A stretch of 33,232 nucleotides of DNA from Candidatus Aminicenantota bacterium (GTDB lineage Bacteria > Acidobacteriota > Aminicenantia > S016-38), in the NCBI GenBank assembly GCA_026991555.1, contig JALXBI010000118.1, forward strand, positions 1 to 33,232, written 5' to 3'. Below are positions 7,570 to 27,475 of the stretch, piece by piece. Below the pieces are notes generated by a model that was not told the DNA's origin, did no database searches, and saw only the letters and a list, made by a program, of their open reading frames with translations. A program made the position numbers and the translations under genes. The stretch's first letter is position 1; each line of letters starts with the position of its first letter.

Positions 7570-8016
7570 ATGAGAAGAGTTTTACCTCTTATTTTTCTGG
7601 CGGTCATAGTAAGCTTCTCCTATGGGGAGGCCACCCTTCTGGGTTATGTTTTCAAGACCCCGGAAAAGAAAACACCTATAAAAGGAGCCGTGGTTAAACT
7701 CCAGGGCCTGAACGGGAAAATCTACTTCTCAAAACCCACTCCAGCAGATGGAAGCTACATGATACAGAATATAGAAAGGGGGAAGTATAAAATATCCGTA
7801 CTTTATAAAAACAGGGAATATAAAGCCGTCTTTACCCAGCCGGGCAGCAAGCCCAGTGAGCACCCTGTTCTTGTGGAAGGAGGCACCCTCATAATCTCCC
7901 TCGCCCTCAAGCCCGGCAAGGATCTTCTGGCCATAGCGATTTTAGGAGGAGCTGCCCTGACAGGTGGGGCTTATGAATTTACAACCAAGGAAGAGACTGT
8001 CAGCCCGATTAAGTAA
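7570..8016 (+). CDS. Secreted protein with carboxypeptidase-regulatory-like domain
   Basis: A 148-residue protein that opens the polysaccharide locus. It has a signal peptide (residues 1-18) and then a transthyretin-like beta-sandwich: ATLLGYVF, IKGAVVKLQG, PADGSYMIQNIERGKYKISV and EYKAVF match the pattern of CarboxypepD_reg-like domains. Near the C-terminus, residues ~120-136 form a hydrophobic Gly/Ala-rich segment that could be a membrane helix, with a short charged tail. GGAGG lies five bases before the ATG. Its end overlaps the next gene by 44 bases. A structural role at the cell surface or in the exporter is an inference from position only. Confidence 0.7.
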   Translation: MRRVLPLIFLAVIVSFSYGEATLLGYVFKTPEKKTPIKGAVVKLQGLNGKIYFSKPTPADGSYMIQNIERGKYKISVLYKNREYKAVFTQPGSKPSEHPVLVEGGTLIISLALKPGKDLLAIAILGGAALTGGAYEFTTKEETVSPIK

Positions 8017-9175
8017 GTTCTTAATTGTCTTCGTCTTAATTTCTCTTTTACCCTCTAAGAATTTCGAAAGGGAAAAGCGGCGGGTAGAAAGAAGAGCCAG
8101 GTGGAAGATAGGTTCCCTGTATATAAGGCCATTTCTTGAGCTAAGAAACTTAGGCTACGACTATAACGTATATACCGCTGGAGGGAATGTGGGGGATTGG
8201 TTTATAAGCGGAGGAGGGGGACTGGATGCTTCCCTGTTAAGGCCTTCATTCCTATTAAAGATGTCCATAGCTCCTAATTTTCTGGCTTTTCTCCGTCATC
8301 CCTCGGAAAACTTTGCCAGCACCGATATTAAAGGAGAGCTCGCCACCAGGATATGGAAGCTCCATCTTTTTACTGACTATGCGAAATTCAAAAGAAAACA
8401 GAGACCCCCTTACGAAATGGCCCCAAGGGTCATTATAGGATACGAAGGATTCTCTTTCTCCGCAGAGCTCTCCCCGGGCTTTCCCCTTTCCATGGGAGTG
8501 ATTTTTAAGAGGGAAAATTTTTCCTATAAAAGACCGGAAACCAATTTCCTCTTTTTCTCTCCGGACAGGGTGGAATACAACTATATTTTTTTCATAAAAA
8601 GGAGGATATTTACTGCAACCCACCTATTGCTTGAATTGGGCCTTAGAAGGGCCAACTTCAAAATAGCCCCTGAACGCAGGGACGCCATTCACCGGTGGTT
8701 TTCCTTAGGGGCCGAGCTTCCTGATGTAGGGGTTATCCAGGGTTCCTTCGCCGTGGGTTATAAGGAAATTTTCCCACTAAAGTCCGGGGACTTCCATTTC
8801 AAAGGGCTTTACGGCATGGGAAACATACTGGCAGACCTGAACATTGCGTTTTTTTCCCTCCTATACACCCTTGACTGGAACTACTCCCCTTATTTTGGCG
8901 AAATCGTAAGGGTGGAGTTAGTCAGGGCAGGAGCTGGTGTAAGATTGGCAGGAAGAAGGATAAAAATCCGGGCGAGGAGGGGATGGGGAAAGCTCACCTT
9001 TCCTTTTATGGAAAGAATTGATAAAATTAAAAGTTACGAAGGAGATTTTCTTTTAAGGATCAGACCCGGAACCTATGTGGGACTTGCCTATTCAAGGATG
9101 CGGAGCAGTTCTACTGTTGCGGGCTGGACAAGGAAACTGGAAACTATAGGAGGAATAATTGAGTATGGTTTTTAA
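7973..9175 (+). CDS. Outer-membrane beta-barrel protein of the polysaccharide export locus
   Basis: A 400-residue protein. After an N-terminal hydrophobic segment (residues ~15-28, signal peptide) the rest is a succession of amphipathic strands with aromatic girdles, Gly-rich turns (FISGGGGLDASL) and a C-terminal phenylalanine (IIEYGF), as in outer-membrane barrels. Position and pattern recall the BBP2-like barrels found beside OPX genes. The start is uncertain: GTG at 7964 or ATG at 7973, both overlapping the previous gene; the ATG has only a weak GGTGGGG upstream. The following OPX gene overlaps it by 17 bases. In Myxococcus xanthus such a barrel pairs with a short OPX protein to make the outer-membrane pore; a similar job is likely here. 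Confidence 0.75.
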   Translation: MNLQPRKRLSARLSKFLIVFVLISLLPSKNFEREKRRVERRARWKIGSLYIRPFLELRNLGYDYNVYTAGGNVGDWFISGGGGLDASLLRPSFLLKMSIAPNFLAFLRHPSENFASTDIKGELATRIWKLHLFTDYAKFKRKQRPPYEMAPRVIIGYEGFSFSAELSPGFPLSMGVIFKRENFSYKRPETNFLFFSPDRVEYNYIFFIKRRIFTATHLLLELGLRRANFKIAPERRDAIHRWFSLGAELPDVGVIQGSFAVGYKEIFPLKSGDFHFKGLYGMGNILADLNIAFFSLLYTLDWNYSPYFGEIVRVELVRAGAGVRLAGRRIKIRARRGWGKLTFPFMERIDKIKSYEGDFLLRIRPGTYVGLAYSRMRSSSTVAGWTRKLETIGGIIEYGF

Positions 9176-9998: not shown

Positions 9999-12128
9999 GT
10001 GAACTACAGAGAGGAAGAGAATTTTTCCGAGGAAATAAGTTTCTCACAGCTCCTGGAGGTCTTAAAGAGGAGAAAAAATATAGTGCTTATTTCCCTTATA
10101 TTTACCGTAGTGATTATGATGGCTCTTACCTTCATGAAAACCCCTGTTTACGAAGCGGAGTCCACTATTTTAATAGAGAGGGAAGCCAATGTTCTTATCT
10201 TCAAAGACCTCTTTACCATAGAGGCAGGAAAATGGGACCAGAAATTCAACTCATATGTCAGGATGCTTCACAGCCGGAGCCTGGCCAAAAGGGTCGTCAA
10301 AAGACTTAAAATGGATTCTAAACTGCCCAGGGATTTGTCCCCGGAGAAAAGGCAAGAGGCCATCTCAAAAATGGCTTCGTCCTTGCTTTCCAGGCTAAAG
10401 GTAATTCCTATAGAAAATACCCGCCTGGTGGTAGTTAAATACAGGGACACGGACCCAAAGAGGGCAGCGAGAATAGCCAACGCCTTTGTGGACGAATTCA
10501 TCCAGTTCACCGTTGAGCTCAAGGGGGAATCCGCCAAGAGAGCTGCCGAGTATCTGAGTCATCAGATAGAAAGGCTTAGAAAGACCCTGGCCGAAAAGGA
10601 GAAGGAGCTTCAGAAGTACAGTCAAAGAAAGGACCTCTATTACCTTACCGACAAGCAAAACACCATAATTCAAAAATTCGCCCAGCTGAACAGGGCCTAT
10701 ACCCAGGCCCAGATCAACAGGGTAAACCTTGAGGCAAATTACAGGGAACTTCTCTCCAAGAGCTTTGACCAGTTTCCCAATGTGGTGAAGAATCCCCTGA
10801 TAATTTCCCTAAAGGCAGAGTATTCCAAACTGGAAGCTCAATACAAGCAAAAATCCGCCATCTTCAAGCCCGATTATCCGGAAATGAAAAGTCTTCGCTC
10901 CAGAATGGAGGCTCTGAAAGCGAGGATAGAAAAGGAAACCAGGGCTTTAGGAGAGGAGGCCCTTAAAACTGCTAAGGCTAAATACCTGGCAGCTCTTAAG
11001 ACCGAACAGTCCCTTAAAAAATTGGTGGAAGAACAGAAAAAACAGATGGCCATGGCCAACAAAAGCGGAATTTACTACAACAGCCTGAAAATAGAGGTTA
11101 AGAACCTGCGGGAGCTCCTGGCCCATCTCACCAAGAAACAGAAGGAATCCATTCTTTCAGCCAACCTTGAGGGAATGAGAACCAGCAACATCAAAGTGGT
11201 GGACCGGGCCGAGGTCCCCTTCTACCCTGCCAGCCCCAACAAGAAAAAGAACCTGCTCCTTGCCATTCTTTTTGGATTAACCGCCGGAGTTCTTCTGGCC
11301 TTTCTGGTGGATGCTCTGGATACTTCAGTGAAGGATGCGGAGGAAGCCGAAAAACTCTTTAAATTGCCGGTCCTCGGCCTTGCCCCTAACATGGAGATGG
11401 AAGACGGTCAGGCGGAGACTTCACCCCTTGACTGGATGCAAAATAACTTTCCCTTTTCGGAGAGGATTAAAACCATAACCACCTCAATTCTCCTTTCCTC
11501 TCCTGAATCTCCCCCATCAACCATAGCCATCACCAGTTCCCTTCCCGGGGAAGGGAAAACCACTATAGCCTCAAGCATTGCCGTCTCTTTAGCTGCTCTG
11601 GGCAAAAAAACCCTTATCCTTGACGGGGACCTTAGAAAGGGGAAAATCCGGGATATGTTCAAAATCCCCGAAGAGCACGGCTTATCCTCCGTCCTTACGG
11701 GACACATTCCTCTTAAGGAAGCCATCGTCTCCACCCAAATTCCCATGCTCTATGGTCTGCCTTCAGGACCAACCCCTCCCAATCCCGTGGAACTCCTTTC
11801 TTCGGACAGGATGAGGGAGGTGCTGGAAACGCTGACCAGGGAGTTTAAATTCATAATAATAGATACCCCTCCCATGGTGGGAATCTCTGACCCCATCATT
11901 CTTTCCAGCCTGTCCCAGAAAACGATTCTTGTGCTCTGGGCAGGGAAAACTTCCAGGAAAGTGGTGAAGGAATCCTTGGACCTTCTCCGGAAAAATGGTA
12001 TCAAACCCATGGGAATAGTCCTCAACAGAATAGGATATCGGGGAACCGGTTATAAAAAATACTACAGGTACGAAGAGTATGGATACGGATATGGTGGATA
12101 TACACGCTCATATCCTCCCGGGCATTGA
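9999..12128 (+). CDS. Polysaccharide co-polymerase fused to BY-family tyrosine autokinase (Wzc-type)
   Basis: A 709-residue inner-membrane protein. A Wzz-type periplasmic region lies between two membrane helices (residues ~30-50 and ~422-442) and has a long coiled coil at ~185-380. The cytoplasmic kinase has Walker A SSLPGEGKTT at 513-522, Walker A' (LILDGDLRKG) about 25 residues later, and Walker B FIIIDTPP at 618-625. The tail holds ten tyrosines between 680 and 705 (for example YKKYYRYEEYGYGYGGY), the autophosphorylation cluster. Such proteins control chain length and export by cycles of phosphorylation. GTG 9999 has AGGAGGGG at 9988-9995. The last 50 bases overlap the phosphatase gene. 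Confidence 0.95.
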   Translation: MNYREEENFSEEISFSQLLEVLKRRKNIVLISLIFTVVIMMALTFMKTPVYEAESTILIEREANVLIFKDLFTIEAGKWDQKFNSYVRMLHSRSLAKRVVKRLKMDSKLPRDLSPEKRQEAISKMASSLLSRLKVIPIENTRLVVVKYRDTDPKRAARIANAFVDEFIQFTVELKGESAKRAAEYLSHQIERLRKTLAEKEKELQKYSQRKDLYYLTDKQNTIIQKFAQLNRAYTQAQINRVNLEANYRELLSKSFDQFPNVVKNPLIISLKAEYSKLEAQYKQKSAIFKPDYPEMKSLRSRMEALKARIEKETRALGEEALKTAKAKYLAALKTEQSLKKLVEEQKKQMAMANKSGIYYNSLKIEVKNLRELLAHLTKKQKESILSANLEGMRTSNIKVVDRAEVPFYPASPNKKKNLLLAILFGLTAGVLLAFLVDALDTSVKDAEEAEKLFKLPVLGLAPNMEMEDGQAETSPLDWMQNNFPFSERIKTITTSILLSSPESPPSTIAITSSLPGEGKTTIASSIAVSLAALGKKTLILDGDLRKGKIRDMFKIPEEHGLSSVLTGHIPLKEAIVSTQIPMLYGLPSGPTPPNPVELLSSDRMREVLETLTREFKFIIIDTPPMVGISDPIILSSLSQKTILVLWAGKTSRKVVKESLDLLRKNGIKPMGIVLNRIGYRGTGYKKYYRYEEYGYGYGGYTRSYPPGH
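12079..12128 (+). other. Dual-coding overlap: kinase tyrosine tail and phosphatase metal motif
   Basis: In one frame these bases encode the kinase tail from Y694 to the stop (YGYGYGGYTRSYPPGH). In the next frame they encode the phosphatase N-terminus, including HAH of the PHP metal site (MVDIHAHILPGI). If the phosphatase begins at its second ATG (12091), the overlap is still 38 bases. Confidence 0.9.
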
Positions 12129-12807
12129 CGACGGGCCAGAAACCCTGGAGGAATCCTTAGGGCTCGCCGAAGAACTTGCGCTTCAGGGAGTTCATACTGT
12201 GGTTACCACCCCCCATTGGGGGAGGATAACGAAAAGGACCCTTTCGGAGATAAGAGAAATCTTCCTGGAAATTAAGGAAAAACTCCAGGAAAACTCCGTT
12301 GAAATAAATATTTGTCTTGGCTTTGAACTCTTTCTGGACCTGGAAACCCTGGAGGAAGTGAAAGGAGAGCCGGAAAAATTCTCCTTAGCAGGGGGGAATT
12401 TCATCCTGGTGGAATTTCCCTTTGAATTTCTCTATCCCAACTGGGAAGTTCTCCTGCGGGAAATACGGGAGGCAGGGCTCAGCCCGGTAATCGCCCATCC
12501 TGAAAGATACGGACCTGTTTTAAGGGATTATTCCCTGCTGTCAAGAATGGTGGCAGAGGGGGCCATTTTACAGGTCAACGCAGAAAGCCTCCTGGGGGAA
12601 AACGGGGAAAGGGCCCGGAAAACAGCAATGAAGTGCCTCCAGGAAGGCCTGTGTTCAGTGGTGGCCTCTGACACCCACGGCCTAAGATTCCGCCCTCCTC
12701 GCCTCAGGAAAGCCTACGAACTGATAAGCAAAAAAATCTCTCCTTCTTCAGCCCAGGACTTTTTTGAGAAGAACCCCGGAAACCTTCTTCAGGGAGTAAG
12801 CGGATGA
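12079..12807 (+). CDS. PHP-type protein-tyrosine phosphatase (CpsB/YwqE family)
   Basis: A 242-residue phosphatase of the polymerase-and-histidinol-phosphatase fold that removes phosphate from the BY-kinase tyrosine cluster. Metal-site motifs are visible: DIHAHILPGIDDGP at 7-20, TTPHW near 44, IAHPERYG in the middle and ASDTHGL towards the end, all typical of the CpsB/CapC/YwqE group. It starts inside the kinase gene, at ATG 12079 or 12091. Family members usually begin just before the DIHxH motif, so 12091 is plausible. Neither has a strong Shine-Dalgarno, which suggests translational coupling to the kinase. The stop overlaps the next gene as ATGA. Confidence 0.93.
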   Translation: MDTDMVDIHAHILPGIDDGPETLEESLGLAEELALQGVHTVVTTPHWGRITKRTLSEIREIFLEIKEKLQENSVEINICLGFELFLDLETLEEVKGEPEKFSLAGGNFILVEFPFEFLYPNWEVLLREIREAGLSPVIAHPERYGPVLRDYSLLSRMVAEGAILQVNAESLLGENGERARKTAMKCLQEGLCSVVASDTHGLRFRPPRLRKAYELISKKISPSSAQDFFEKNPGNLLQGVSG

Positions 12808-23756: not shown

Positions 23757-25078
23757 AAGGTGCATTTTTCTCTATTGTTTTGCTCCTGATAGGCTCAATT
23801 TTTTATGTTTTATTCAAAAGCTATAGTAAAAATAGGAACTTTATTTTTCCGCACATCTTATGGACCATGCTATTGATTTCCACATTTATCTTTAGGGTGA
23901 GAACCACCTCCCAATTAATAGAGAATCCTTTGGATACTGCAGGGATATTTAGGCTCACTACGATTCTTTTAGTTTTTACCCTTTCTTTCGTTTATATAGC
24001 ATTACATAAGTTTTCTGGCTTTCTCAGAAAAAGAGATTATCTTGTTTTAAGCATGTTAGCTTATCTTACCTTTGCGGCGATTTCCTTCGTTTATTCTCCT
24101 ATACCTAAATTAACCCTATATAAATCCTTCGAGCTATTGACGGAAATTCTGCTCTTGTTGGTTTTATTAAGGCCATTAAATTTAAGGATCATTAAAATTC
24201 AGTTTGACATAAATTATTATATACTCTTTTTCCTAATAGCCTCTGCTTGGTTTTGGGTTCCTTTTAAACCTCAGGAGGCGATAATCCGCCATGGATACTT
24301 AAACTTTATTCTAAGGGGCGCGTTCCCCCTGCAAGATGCTGACATGGTCACAGTCCATGCCGCTATCCTTTCAGTAGCTGCTTATGTAAGAAGCAGGTTC
24401 TCTGAAAGAAAAAATTTTTATAGAATACTTTTCATATTTTCTTTAACAACTATGTTTTTTGCCCAAGGACGAACTTCCATAGTGGGATTTCTGGTAGCGT
24501 TAGCATTCATTTTCTATCTGCTCAAGGATAAAAGCAAATTGTTACTTATGGTTACTTTAGCCTTGATTATAGCTAATTCGAAATCTATATATAATATTCT
24601 TTATTCTTATTTTTTAAAAGGCTCCTCCCCAAAACTTATAACGAACATAGGGGGAAGGTGGTTGCTTTGGAAAGCCGGCTGGAAGGCTTTCCTTACCTCT
24701 CCCATTATCGGACACGGCTTTGCTACAGGCTCAAGGATGGTGGCACAAAGCGTAGTGGGTTTTCTCATTTCTACTTACAATACATTTTTGGAAATATCCG
24801 TTAATACGGGAATTTTAGGATTAACGCTATTCAGCATTGCTTTTTTCGGAACTTTCTTTCAGCTGTGGAAATTCTATTCTAAAATAAATTCTAGCCTCCC
24901 AGGAAAAAATTACCTATTAGTCCGTTCGCTAATCTTGGAGAGTACCGGGATATTTATCGTGCTACTATTTAGGGCCACAACTTCTTTCTCTTTGGGAGAA
25001 CACGGAATAACCATGGCAATTTTCATGTCTTTGTTGGGCTTGGCTGAAGTTTTAAAATATAAAAAAATTAAACCATGA
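23753..25078 (+). CDS. O-antigen polymerase/ligase-family membrane protein, second copy
   Basis: A 441-residue protein with about eleven hydrophobic segments. The signature is IIGHGFATGSRM...STYNTFLEISVNTGILGL (~320-356), preceded by AQGRTSIVGFLVALAF; both match the O-antigen ligase/Wzy_C family. The His of the HxxNxxL core found in the first copy is replaced (TYNTFLE). It is visibly richer in A and T than the genes at both ends of the locus. With another member at 12804, one may be the polymerase and the other a ligase, or each may handle a different repeat unit. ATGA overlaps join it to both neighbours. Confidence 0.82.
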   Translation: MKGAFFSIVLLLIGSIFYVLFKSYSKNRNFIFPHILWTMLLISTFIFRVRTTSQLIENPLDTAGIFRLTTILLVFTLSFVYIALHKFSGFLRKRDYLVLSMLAYLTFAAISFVYSPIPKLTLYKSFELLTEILLLLVLLRPLNLRIIKIQFDINYYILFFLIASAWFWVPFKPQEAIIRHGYLNFILRGAFPLQDADMVTVHAAILSVAAYVRSRFSERKNFYRILFIFSLTTMFFAQGRTSIVGFLVALAFIFYLLKDKSKLLLMVTLALIIANSKSIYNILYSYFLKGSSPKLITNIGGRWLLWKAGWKAFLTSPIIGHGFATGSRMVAQSVVGFLISTYNTFLEISVNTGILGLTLFSIAFFGTFFQLWKFYSKINSSLPGKNYLLVRSLILESTGIFIVLLFRATTSFSLGEHGITMAIFMSLLGLAEVLKYKKIKP

Positions 25079-26325
25079 AAATCCTCCTTTCTGCTTATGC
25101 CTGTGAACCCGGGAAGGGTTCGGAACCAAGGCTTGGCTGGATGTGGGTGAAATATTTGTCTAAAAGGCACGAAGTATGGGTAATCACCAGGGCCAATAAT
25201 AAACCTTTAATAGAAGATGAACTCCGTAAAAACCCTACTACAAAAGCAAATTTCCTCTATTACGACCTTCCCCCATGGATAAGATTCTGGAAAAAAGGAA
25301 GGAGGGGCTATCACCTTTATTATTACCTTTGGCAAGTGGGCATATATTTTAAGTTCAAGGATTTCATAAAAAGGATGGATTTTCACATAATCCAGCACAT
25401 AACCTTCGGCAATAATTGGCAACCCAGCTTTCTTTCCCTGATAAATAAGAGCTTCATCTGGGGCCCTGTGGGAGGAGAAAATACCCCGTGGAAGATTTTT
25501 AAAATCCTTCCCTTAAGGGCGAAGATAAAAGAAGCATTCCGCGAAACCATGAGATTTATAGGTCATCATTTTGACCCATTCGTAAGGCTCACGGCAAAAA
25601 GGGCAAAGCTGATCCTTGATACTTCCTCCCGGTGGGCTCATTCACCTTACCCTAAAAAAGAAAGAAGCAAAATTGTGAAATTTTCCCAGAACGGGATTTC
25701 CCCTGAAGAATTGCCCTTCAGCCTTGATAAAATCCTGGAAACCAAAGAGAGAGGAACTTTCCGGATAGTCTTTATAGGGGAATTTGTTCATTGGAAGGGG
25801 ATATTGTTTGTAGCAGAAGCATTAAAGGATTTTGCAGCAAAGGTGGATAATGGATGGGAAGCAATCCTGGCAGGTTACGGTCCAGAATTCAAAAGGGTAA
25901 AGAAAATGTTAGAAAATTTAGGAGACAGAATAAAAATGCCCGGGAAAATAAGCATGCAAGAAGTTTGGAACACCCTCAGGGATTCCCATGTATTCATATA
26001 TCCATCCTTCCATCACGGACAATCCACCATAATAATGCAGGCTATGGCATGTGGTCTTCCAGTAATATGTATAGAAGGGGATGCCACAGCAGAAACTGTG
26101 GAAGAAGGGGCCGGAATAGTGGTCCCCCTTTCCACAAAAGAGAAAATAATAAAGGGTCTCAGTGAGGCTCTTCAGAAACTTTATCACAATAGGGAACTTG
26201 CTACGCAAATGGGCTTGAAGGCTCAAAGCCTGGTGTTTGAAAAATACTCATGGGAAAAGAAGGTGGAGCTTCTGGAAAAGATTTATGGACAGGTTATACA
26301 AAATGAAAATCCTCATAGTTCATAA
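25075..26325 (+). CDS. GT4 glycosyltransferase with altered EX7E motif
   Basis: A 416-residue GT-B enzyme. SAYACEPGKGSEPRLGWMW is the GGxG-like acceptor loop of one GT4 subgroup, and QHITFGNNWQPSF and WGPVGGENTP follow. The donor domain has FIGEFVHWKGILFVAEAL, LAGYGPEF and YPSFHHGQSTIIMQAMACGLPVI. In most GT4 enzymes the last segment has a Glu where this protein has Gln (MQAMACG), and the first Glu is also absent. The rest of the fold looks intact, so it may be active with other residues or be impaired. It overlaps the next gene by 23 bases. Confidence 0.85.
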   Translation: MKILLSAYACEPGKGSEPRLGWMWVKYLSKRHEVWVITRANNKPLIEDELRKNPTTKANFLYYDLPPWIRFWKKGRRGYHLYYYLWQVGIYFKFKDFIKRMDFHIIQHITFGNNWQPSFLSLINKSFIWGPVGGENTPWKIFKILPLRAKIKEAFRETMRFIGHHFDPFVRLTAKRAKLILDTSSRWAHSPYPKKERSKIVKFSQNGISPEELPFSLDKILETKERGTFRIVFIGEFVHWKGILFVAEALKDFAAKVDNGWEAILAGYGPEFKRVKKMLENLGDRIKMPGKISMQEVWNTLRDSHVFIYPSFHHGQSTIIMQAMACGLPVICIEGDATAETVEEGAGIVVPLSTKEKIIKGLSEALQKLYHNRELATQMGLKAQSLVFEKYSWEKKVELLEKIYGQVIQNENPHSS

Positions 26326-27475
26326 CTTCCACAGAAAGGGCTCTGCCAGCGGGGACGATGCGGTGGTAGAGAGGGAGCTTTCCCTGCTTAAAACCCATGG
26401 CCATGATGTTATGCTCTTTGCTAAGGAGAATTCGGAAATATACGAAGCCTCCCCCATAAGGAAGCTGAATCTCGCCATGAAAATTCCCTGGTCATGGGAG
26501 AACTACCGCAGTCTTCGCCGGCTCATCCGGGAATTCCGCCCGGACATAATCCATGTTCATAATTTCTTCCCCCTTATAACTCCGTCCGTTTACCTTGCAG
26601 CTTACCAGGAAGGAATTCCATTAATCCAATCGGTTCACGACTTCAGGTTCTTCTGCCCTGCAGCCTTCTTTTTCAGGAACGGGGAAATATGCCAGCAGTG
26701 TCCGGAGCGCGGGCTATGGCAGGCGGTGAAATATCGCTGTCTCAGGGGTTCTCTATCCCAGAGCCTTCTGGCAACCCTTGCGGTAAAAAAAGCAAGAAAG
26801 CTCCTCCCATATATTTCCACCTTCATAGTTTTTACGGAGTTTTCCAGGGAAAAACTTGCTGAAATGGGAATTGAGGATGAGAGGCTCTTCGTAAAACCAC
26901 ATTTCCTTCAGGATTCCAGCTGGGAAGGAAACCATAGGGGGGAATTTTTCCTCTTTGCCGGCCGGCTGGGAGAGGAAAAGGGAATAAGGGTTATCCTTAG
27001 GGCCTGGGAGAATCTTGGCCTTCCCCTGAAAATAGCAGGAAGCGGTCCCTTGGAGGAGTGGGTAAAATCAGAGAGCAGCCGTCTAAATCATGTGGAATTC
27101 TTGGGCTTTCTTCAGCCCCGGAAACTCCTGGAAAAGATAGAAAGGGCCTATGCCGTGATAATCCCCTCCATCTGGTATGAAACCTTCGGCCTTGCTGTCA
27201 TAGAATCCTATTCCCGGGGCACACCCGTTATAGCCTCAAGGGTAGGGGCCTTGGCCGACCTGGTCCAGGATGGCAAAACAGGGCTTCTTTTTGAAAGGGC
27301 AAATCCCCGGGACCTTGCGGAAAAGGCCCTGTGGCTATGGGAACATCCAGAAGAAAGGGACAGAATGGCAAGGGAGGCAAGGGAGGAGTTTGAGGAAAAA
27401 TACACCGCTGAAAGGAATTACAAAATTCTTATGGAAATTTATAATAAAGCCATAGAAAGGCACAGAAACCAATGA
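26303..27475 (+). CDS. GT4 glycosyltransferase with Cys-rich acceptor loop
   Basis: A 390-residue GT-B enzyme. The N-terminus MKILIVHNFH, the GSASGDD loop and DIIHVHNFFPLITPSVY match the family. HDFRFFCP, followed by ICQQCPERG and YRCLRGS, is a cysteine cluster found in one GT4 subgroup and may bind a metal. The donor domain has FAGRLGEEKGIRVILRAW and a complete EX7E in ETFGLAVIE. An upstream frame reaches 26237, but the family begins at MKILIVHN, so I chose ATG 26303. The end overlaps the next gene as ATGA. Confidence 0.9.
   Translation: MKILIVHNFHRKGSASGDDAVVERELSLLKTHGHDVMLFAKENSEIYEASPIRKLNLAMKIPWSWENYRSLRRLIREFRPDIIHVHNFFPLITPSVYLAAYQEGIPLIQSVHDFRFFCPAAFFFRNGEICQQCPERGLWQAVKYRCLRGSLSQSLLATLAVKKARKLLPYISTFIVFTEFSREKLAEMGIEDERLFVKPHFLQDSSWEGNHRGEFFLFAGRLGEEKGIRVILRAWENLGLPLKIAGSGPLEEWVKSESSRLNHVEFLGFLQPRKLLEKIERAYAVIIPSIWYETFGLAVIESYSRGTPVIASRVGALADLVQDGKTGLLFERANPRDLAEKALWLWEHPEERDRMAREAREEFEEKYTAERNYKILMEIYNKAIERHRNQ

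Follow-up and report, generated by a model that had tools for sequence, protein, structure and literature searches.

The window, a stretch of 33,232 nucleotides, is a contig of a Candidatus Aminicenantes genome of the Acidobacteriota (G000). As listed in Table 1, a BY-kinase gene and a PHP phosphatase gene in this window share part of their DNA. The two ORFs, 9999-12128 and 12079-12807, are as given in an earlier sequence-only reading, and the BY-kinase and PHP domains assigned to them were confirmed. The pair is flanked by an SLBB/Poly_export gene upstream and a Wzy_C ligase gene downstream, and the order SLBB-kinase-PHP-ligase is kept across the host family. The setting of the kinase and CpsB-type phosphatase genes is a polysaccharide export operon. 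Elsewhere in the window, ORFs 7570-8016 and 7964-9175 show an apparent same-strand overlap of 53 nt, and ORFs 25075-26325 and 26237-27475 one of 89 nt; both involve GTG or TTG starts and probably reflect over-long ORF starts. The SLBB export gene, when read from a TTG start, overlaps ORF 7964-9175 by at most 17 nt (9159-9175), and both of these neighbours are conserved in the host family.

Table 1. Features of the kinase-phosphatase locus (positions in the window)
Feature	Position	Strand	Remarks
Wzc-type BY-kinase gene, 709 aa	9999..12128	+	Wzz, GNVR, and tyrosine autokinase domains in one protein
C-terminal kinase tyrosine cluster, Y685 to Y705, nine Tyr	12051..12113	+	translated sequence
Alternative upstream ATG, 50-nt overlap	12079..12081	+	not conserved
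CpsB/CapC-type PHP tyrosine phosphatase gene, 238 aa from ATG 12091	12091..12807	+	PF19567, CpsB 2wjd
Phase-1 (+1 frame) overlap, 38 nt	12091..12128	+	kinase YGGYTRSYPPGH-stop; phosphatase MVDIHAHILPGI(D)
Phosphatase H5, A6, and H7 codons (metal-binding HxH)	12103..12111	+	also part of kinase codons 702-705
Kinase stop TGA	12126..12128	+	third base of the phosphatase Ile12 codon (ATT) plus bases one and two of Asp13 (GAC)

The kinase gene starts with GTG and has an AGGAGG sequence 9 nt upstream of the start. Its product scores 167 bits against TIGR01007 (cut-off 108) and matches the structures of CapA/CapB (3bfv, E 2e-47) and Wzc (7nhr, E 5e-41). It has the features of a Wzc-type BY-kinase: the Wzz/GNVR part, Walker A, A′ (ILDGDLRK), and B (IIIDTPP) motifs, and a C-terminal tyrosine cluster with nine tyrosines in residues 685-705. 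After GxxLN, the kinase tails have 30-33 residues and 7-11 tyrosines in the host family, and 19-56 residues and 4-10 tyrosines in other Acidobacteriota. Since tail lengths and tyrosine numbers are similar in relatives without the overlap, the kinase tail itself is ordinary for the phylum. A second BY-kinase, 32% identical, was found only in the window's genome (L181, contig C99); its contig has a GC content of 54% versus 46% for the window and is possibly foreign or a contaminant.

The phosphatase matches PF19567 (CpsB_CapC) over profile positions 1-233 of 234 (E 2e-52), the domain covering the whole protein, and CpsB (2wjd) with an E-value of 1e-33. In Cps4B, the metal ligands are H5, H7, D14, H42, E80, E108, H136, D199, and H201, with His5 and His7 among the M1 ligands, and the catalytic residue is R139 (PMC2777267). 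The aligned residues of the window phosphatase are H5, H7, D14, H42, E79, E108, H136, R139, D194, and H196. The kinase is the presumed substrate and partner of this phosphatase.

Is the overlap common in the host family? The sample consisted of seven genomes, and five of them, belonging to two genera, have the kinase-PHP pair: G000-G003 in genus g1, and G006 in the other genus. In one of the five, the sequence is cut off after 41 PHP codons. A contig scan with the single phosphatase protein as the query found one relative only, on a contig of G001, the nearest relative of the window's genome. The other two family genomes have neither the phosphatase nor a Wzc-type kinase and gave only weak 255-aa P-loop matches; thus, the pair is lost as a unit. 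In all five pair-bearing genomes, the kinase has the same frame and the same stop position, and its TGA ends exactly 32 nt after the first base of the DxHxH motif. G006 and the window are 42% identical in the phosphatase and 62% in the kinase (the lowest in the family). Since the overlap is conserved at this divergence, it is an old conserved feature rather than an assembly error, and it was confirmed to be real, beyond chance or error. With a length of 2 modulo 3, two coding frames, and conservation in 5/5 genomes, it is a long phase-1 co-directional overlap. The sequence-only reading had named, as observations that would speak against it, separated genes or a later phosphatase start in close relatives, and a sequencing error truncating the kinase frame; all five genomes overlap, and their separate assemblies share the frame. 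It had also proposed a comparison of homologous pairs, in which the frame, the length, and the phosphatase motif held up within the family, while the kinase residues in the overlap vary and Tyr705 is not kept.

The exact start of the phosphatase determines the length of the overlap. The mechanical overlap of the ORFs is 12079-12128, the 50 nt that had been claimed. As had also been claimed, it contains Y694-H709 in the kinase frame, with five tyrosines (694, 696, 698, 701, and 705), and the phosphatase HxH in the other frame (H5 codon, 12103-12105; H7 codon, 12109-12111). Kinase TAT-GG codons supply both phosphatase ATGs (12079 and 12091), in agreement with the proposal that TAT-GGA codons do so. 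A start at ATG 12079 would add four residues (MDTD); this ATG is in frame, occurs in G000 and G001, and has an anti-SD duplex energy of -3.8. However, it adjoins a six-base (codon) indel, G002 has no upstream ATG at all, and G003 and G006 have one at a different site. ATG 12091, two codons before DxHxH, is kept in all four g1 genomes, and the start in G006 is one codon farther upstream, giving an overlap of 41 nt. The solved CpsB and YwqE chains align from the Met equivalent to 12091. The lysis gene of phage fr, coupled at -38 nt, has a start at -50 as well, but only the -38 start is used (PMC12548453). I regard the upstream start as quite improbable, and it was rejected because conservation is against it. 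Since ATG 12091 is conserved and ATG 12079 is not, the supported overlap is 12091-12128. Thus, the overlap that had been reported is genuine but shorter, and so is the share of the tyrosine tail in it: three of the nine cluster tyrosines (Y698, Y701, and Y705) lie inside, while the majority lie upstream of the phosphatase start. The codon of the metal ligand Asp14 (12130-12132) comes next after Asp13 at the hidden TGA. It is hardly conceivable that the arrangement is an artefact in which a sequencing error extends the kinase, or the site of a programmed +1 frameshift that fuses both proteins. Both frames are indeed open over approximately 90 nt around the junction, but the five assemblies agree, the five junctions have no conserved slippery motif (G006 lacks the A6 run at 12054-12059), and a +1 shift at the kinase stop would yield a phosphatase without HxH. 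Programmed frameshifting was therefore rejected, having neither a conserved slippery site nor a sensible product.

The sequence-only reading had further claimed a mutual constraint, at the nucleotide level, between the tyrosine cluster and the active site of the phosphatase, which would bind enzyme to antagonist by functional dual coding. In two close pairs (G000-G001 and G002-G003), five substitutions were found in the overlap, a small sample, and all five are synonymous in the PHP frame and nonsynonymous in the kinase frame; the random expectation for this class is 24% each, which gives about 0.001 for 5/5 by simple multiplication. One of them changes kinase Tyr705 to His, and position 705 is His in G001 and the remaining family genomes. 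The proposed measurement of synonymous-site constraint gave no support either: PHP synonymous codons change in the overlap about as they do outside (for G000-G002, 3/9 identical versus 0.50 elsewhere, with values varying by genome pair), without slowing, and the kinase frame is free. The Tyr codon TAT over the phosphatase ATG is kept in 5/5 genomes and Tyr701 in 4/5, but these are explained by the start codon and by the Asp3-Ile4 codons (GAT AT), while the other kinase residues in the overlap vary freely. The matching tail length and tyrosine number in relatives without the overlap also argue against mutual constraint, which I consider very unlikely. Protein-level constraint was found in the PHP frame only, not in both frames as dual coding would have it, although the substitutions are few. 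The constraint in the overlap is one-way, from phosphatase to kinase, and these few data show that the part of the kinase tail encoded there is a side effect of coding for the phosphatase.

The overlap could be frozen and neutral, the kinase extension being a harmless accident and the phosphatase initiating independently. Neutral models account for long phase-1 overlaps without selection (PMC2542354, PMC3887535), and the kinase frame lacks protein-level constraint in the overlap. Against independent initiation, none of the five family genomes has a Shine-Dalgarno signal, judged by duplex energy, where the phosphatase starts (anti-SD duplex energies of -3.1, -3.1, +1.5, +0.4, and -3.1; random median, -3.0); the kinase start has -10.7. 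Since the phosphatase start lacks a Shine-Dalgarno sequence, phosphatase translation probably depends on kinase ribosomes, that is, it is probably coupled to kinase translation, as the sequence-only reading had also held likely. A consensus RNA fold of the junction was weak, its covariation term was positive (unfavourable), and it contained no notable start-sequestering helix. A weak leaderless or structure-driven independent start of the phosphatase is possible. The T completing the kinase TGA also bears on neutrality: it is kept in all five genomes despite the change among Ile, Val, and Leu (codons ATT, GTT, GTT, and CTT), whereas T ends 24-39% of Ile/Val/Leu codons in family genes and is found at the same site in 18/141 genes outside the family. 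In these small samples of related genomes, the retained T weakly hints at selection for the kinase stop. I regard a neutral overlap without coupling as unlikely.

The kinase-PHP junctions of other Acidobacteriota were sought in 142 genomes of the class plus a draw of 396 from the phylum, giving 55 distinct non-family junctions whose upstream tail was recognised as a kinase. None of the 55 has an overlap longer than 4 nt; the kinase stop lies at or before the PHP start in every case, with a 4-nt ATGA overlap in 11. In most of them, the PHP start has the same position relative to DxHxH. Thus, the kinase end is the part that changed. In addition, the phase-1 frame was read from the start codon of 141 distinct non-family PHP genes (non-overlapping or unlinked). 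In 35 of these genes the first stop is at +2, and in 39 (28% overall, 37% of those passing +2) it falls within the Ile/Val-Asp-Asp codons, at +32 or +35, so the stop on which the kinase landed pre-exists. The phase-2 frame stops immediately at ATGA in 109/141, which explains why the long overlap occurs only in phase 1. According to these counts, loss of the kinase stop leads to a 4-nt overlap or, with phase-1 reading, often to extension exactly as far as the hidden stop. Ten plasmid-borne kinase-PHP loci were read in other phyla; as annotated, their genes either lie apart or share 4-14 nt. In a different family (f4; L014-L017 and L089-L091), the phosphatase starts 19 codons before DxHxH and the kinase stops at most 5 nt before it; there, the phosphatase rather than the kinase has an extension, at its N-terminus. 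At two further loci (L020 and L033, on contig C237 of G027), the end of the contig carries the phosphatase start on each strand; this inverted repeat is apparently an assembly artefact.

The best explanation, which I consider likely, is kinase stop loss with extension to a hidden TGA in the PHP gene and probable coupling. In the ancestor of the host family, the kinase would have lost its old stop codon; it is read on, in the +1 frame, to the first stop, the TGA across Ile/Val/Leu12-Asp13 of the conserved GIDDG motif. The phosphatase stayed in place: its start still precedes DxHxH by two to three codons and lies within TATGG, at a Tyr codon of the kinase tail. Ribosomes ending the kinase at the TGA probably then step back 38 nt to the nearest start, or open the RNA there; either would tie phosphatase output to kinase output. 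The ancestral kinase stop codon was seen in no intermediate genome. Long phase-1 overlaps usually originate when the upstream gene loses its stop (PMC10666635; PMC3887535), and the hidden-stop pattern of the PHP genes agrees with published models, in which stop loss is followed by a chance in-frame stop inside the next gene, without return to a short overlap (PMC10666635; PMC3887535; PMC2542354). A narrower proposal is that reinitiation by stepping back over 38 nt sets the phosphatase:kinase ratio and that the family keeps the TGA in the metal motif for this reason; it is tentative and, in my judgment, unlikely. If true, it would make the junction the equivalent, on a bacterial chromosome, of the coat-lysis switch of phage fr, balancing enzyme and antagonist.

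The overlap is of an ordinary, known kind, and it is a well-defined family-wide example. With an outgroup for comparison, it cleanly shows, in nature, the formation of a long phase-1 overlap by extension of the upstream gene to a latent stop, here one within a motif conserved in the downstream gene. The understanding of BY-kinase regulation is unchanged by it. The suggestion that the overlap had not been described stands for this gene pair, for which no description was found in the literature searched, but not for long phase-1 overlaps, which are well described.

Several known systems resemble this locus in part. The protein families and operon context are those of CapB-CapC, CpsD-CpsB, and YwqD-YwqE, and the window phosphatase has all the metal ligands and Arg139 as in Cps4B. 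In contrast, the BY-kinase/PHP pairs examined elsewhere are separate or overlap by 1-14 nt. The holD-rimI overlap of Enterobacteria (32-56 bp; PMC2478687) is likewise a family-conserved same-strand overlap of tens of bases, in which the upstream 3′ end is read through the downstream 5′ end. Unlike holD-rimI, the partners in the window are a kinase and its presumed phosphatase, and two metal-ligand codons lie within the overlap, with a third next to its end. Against coupling in the window, native E. coli and Haloferax gene pairs show a steep fall of coupling with distance, and long overlaps are described as typically originating without it (PMC10666635). The phage fr coat-lysis overlap, given as 34 nt in the same paper, has -38 and -50 distances that are those of ATG 12091 and ATG 12079, and in phages fr and MS2 the downstream gene also lacks an independent strong start. 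Coupling was measured in the phage and is inferred in the window, and an RNA phage genome differs from a bacterial operon. If the coupling is true, this would be a chromosomal pair that shares its spacing with the classic phage fr example and fixes the kinase-to-phosphatase ratio by simple means.
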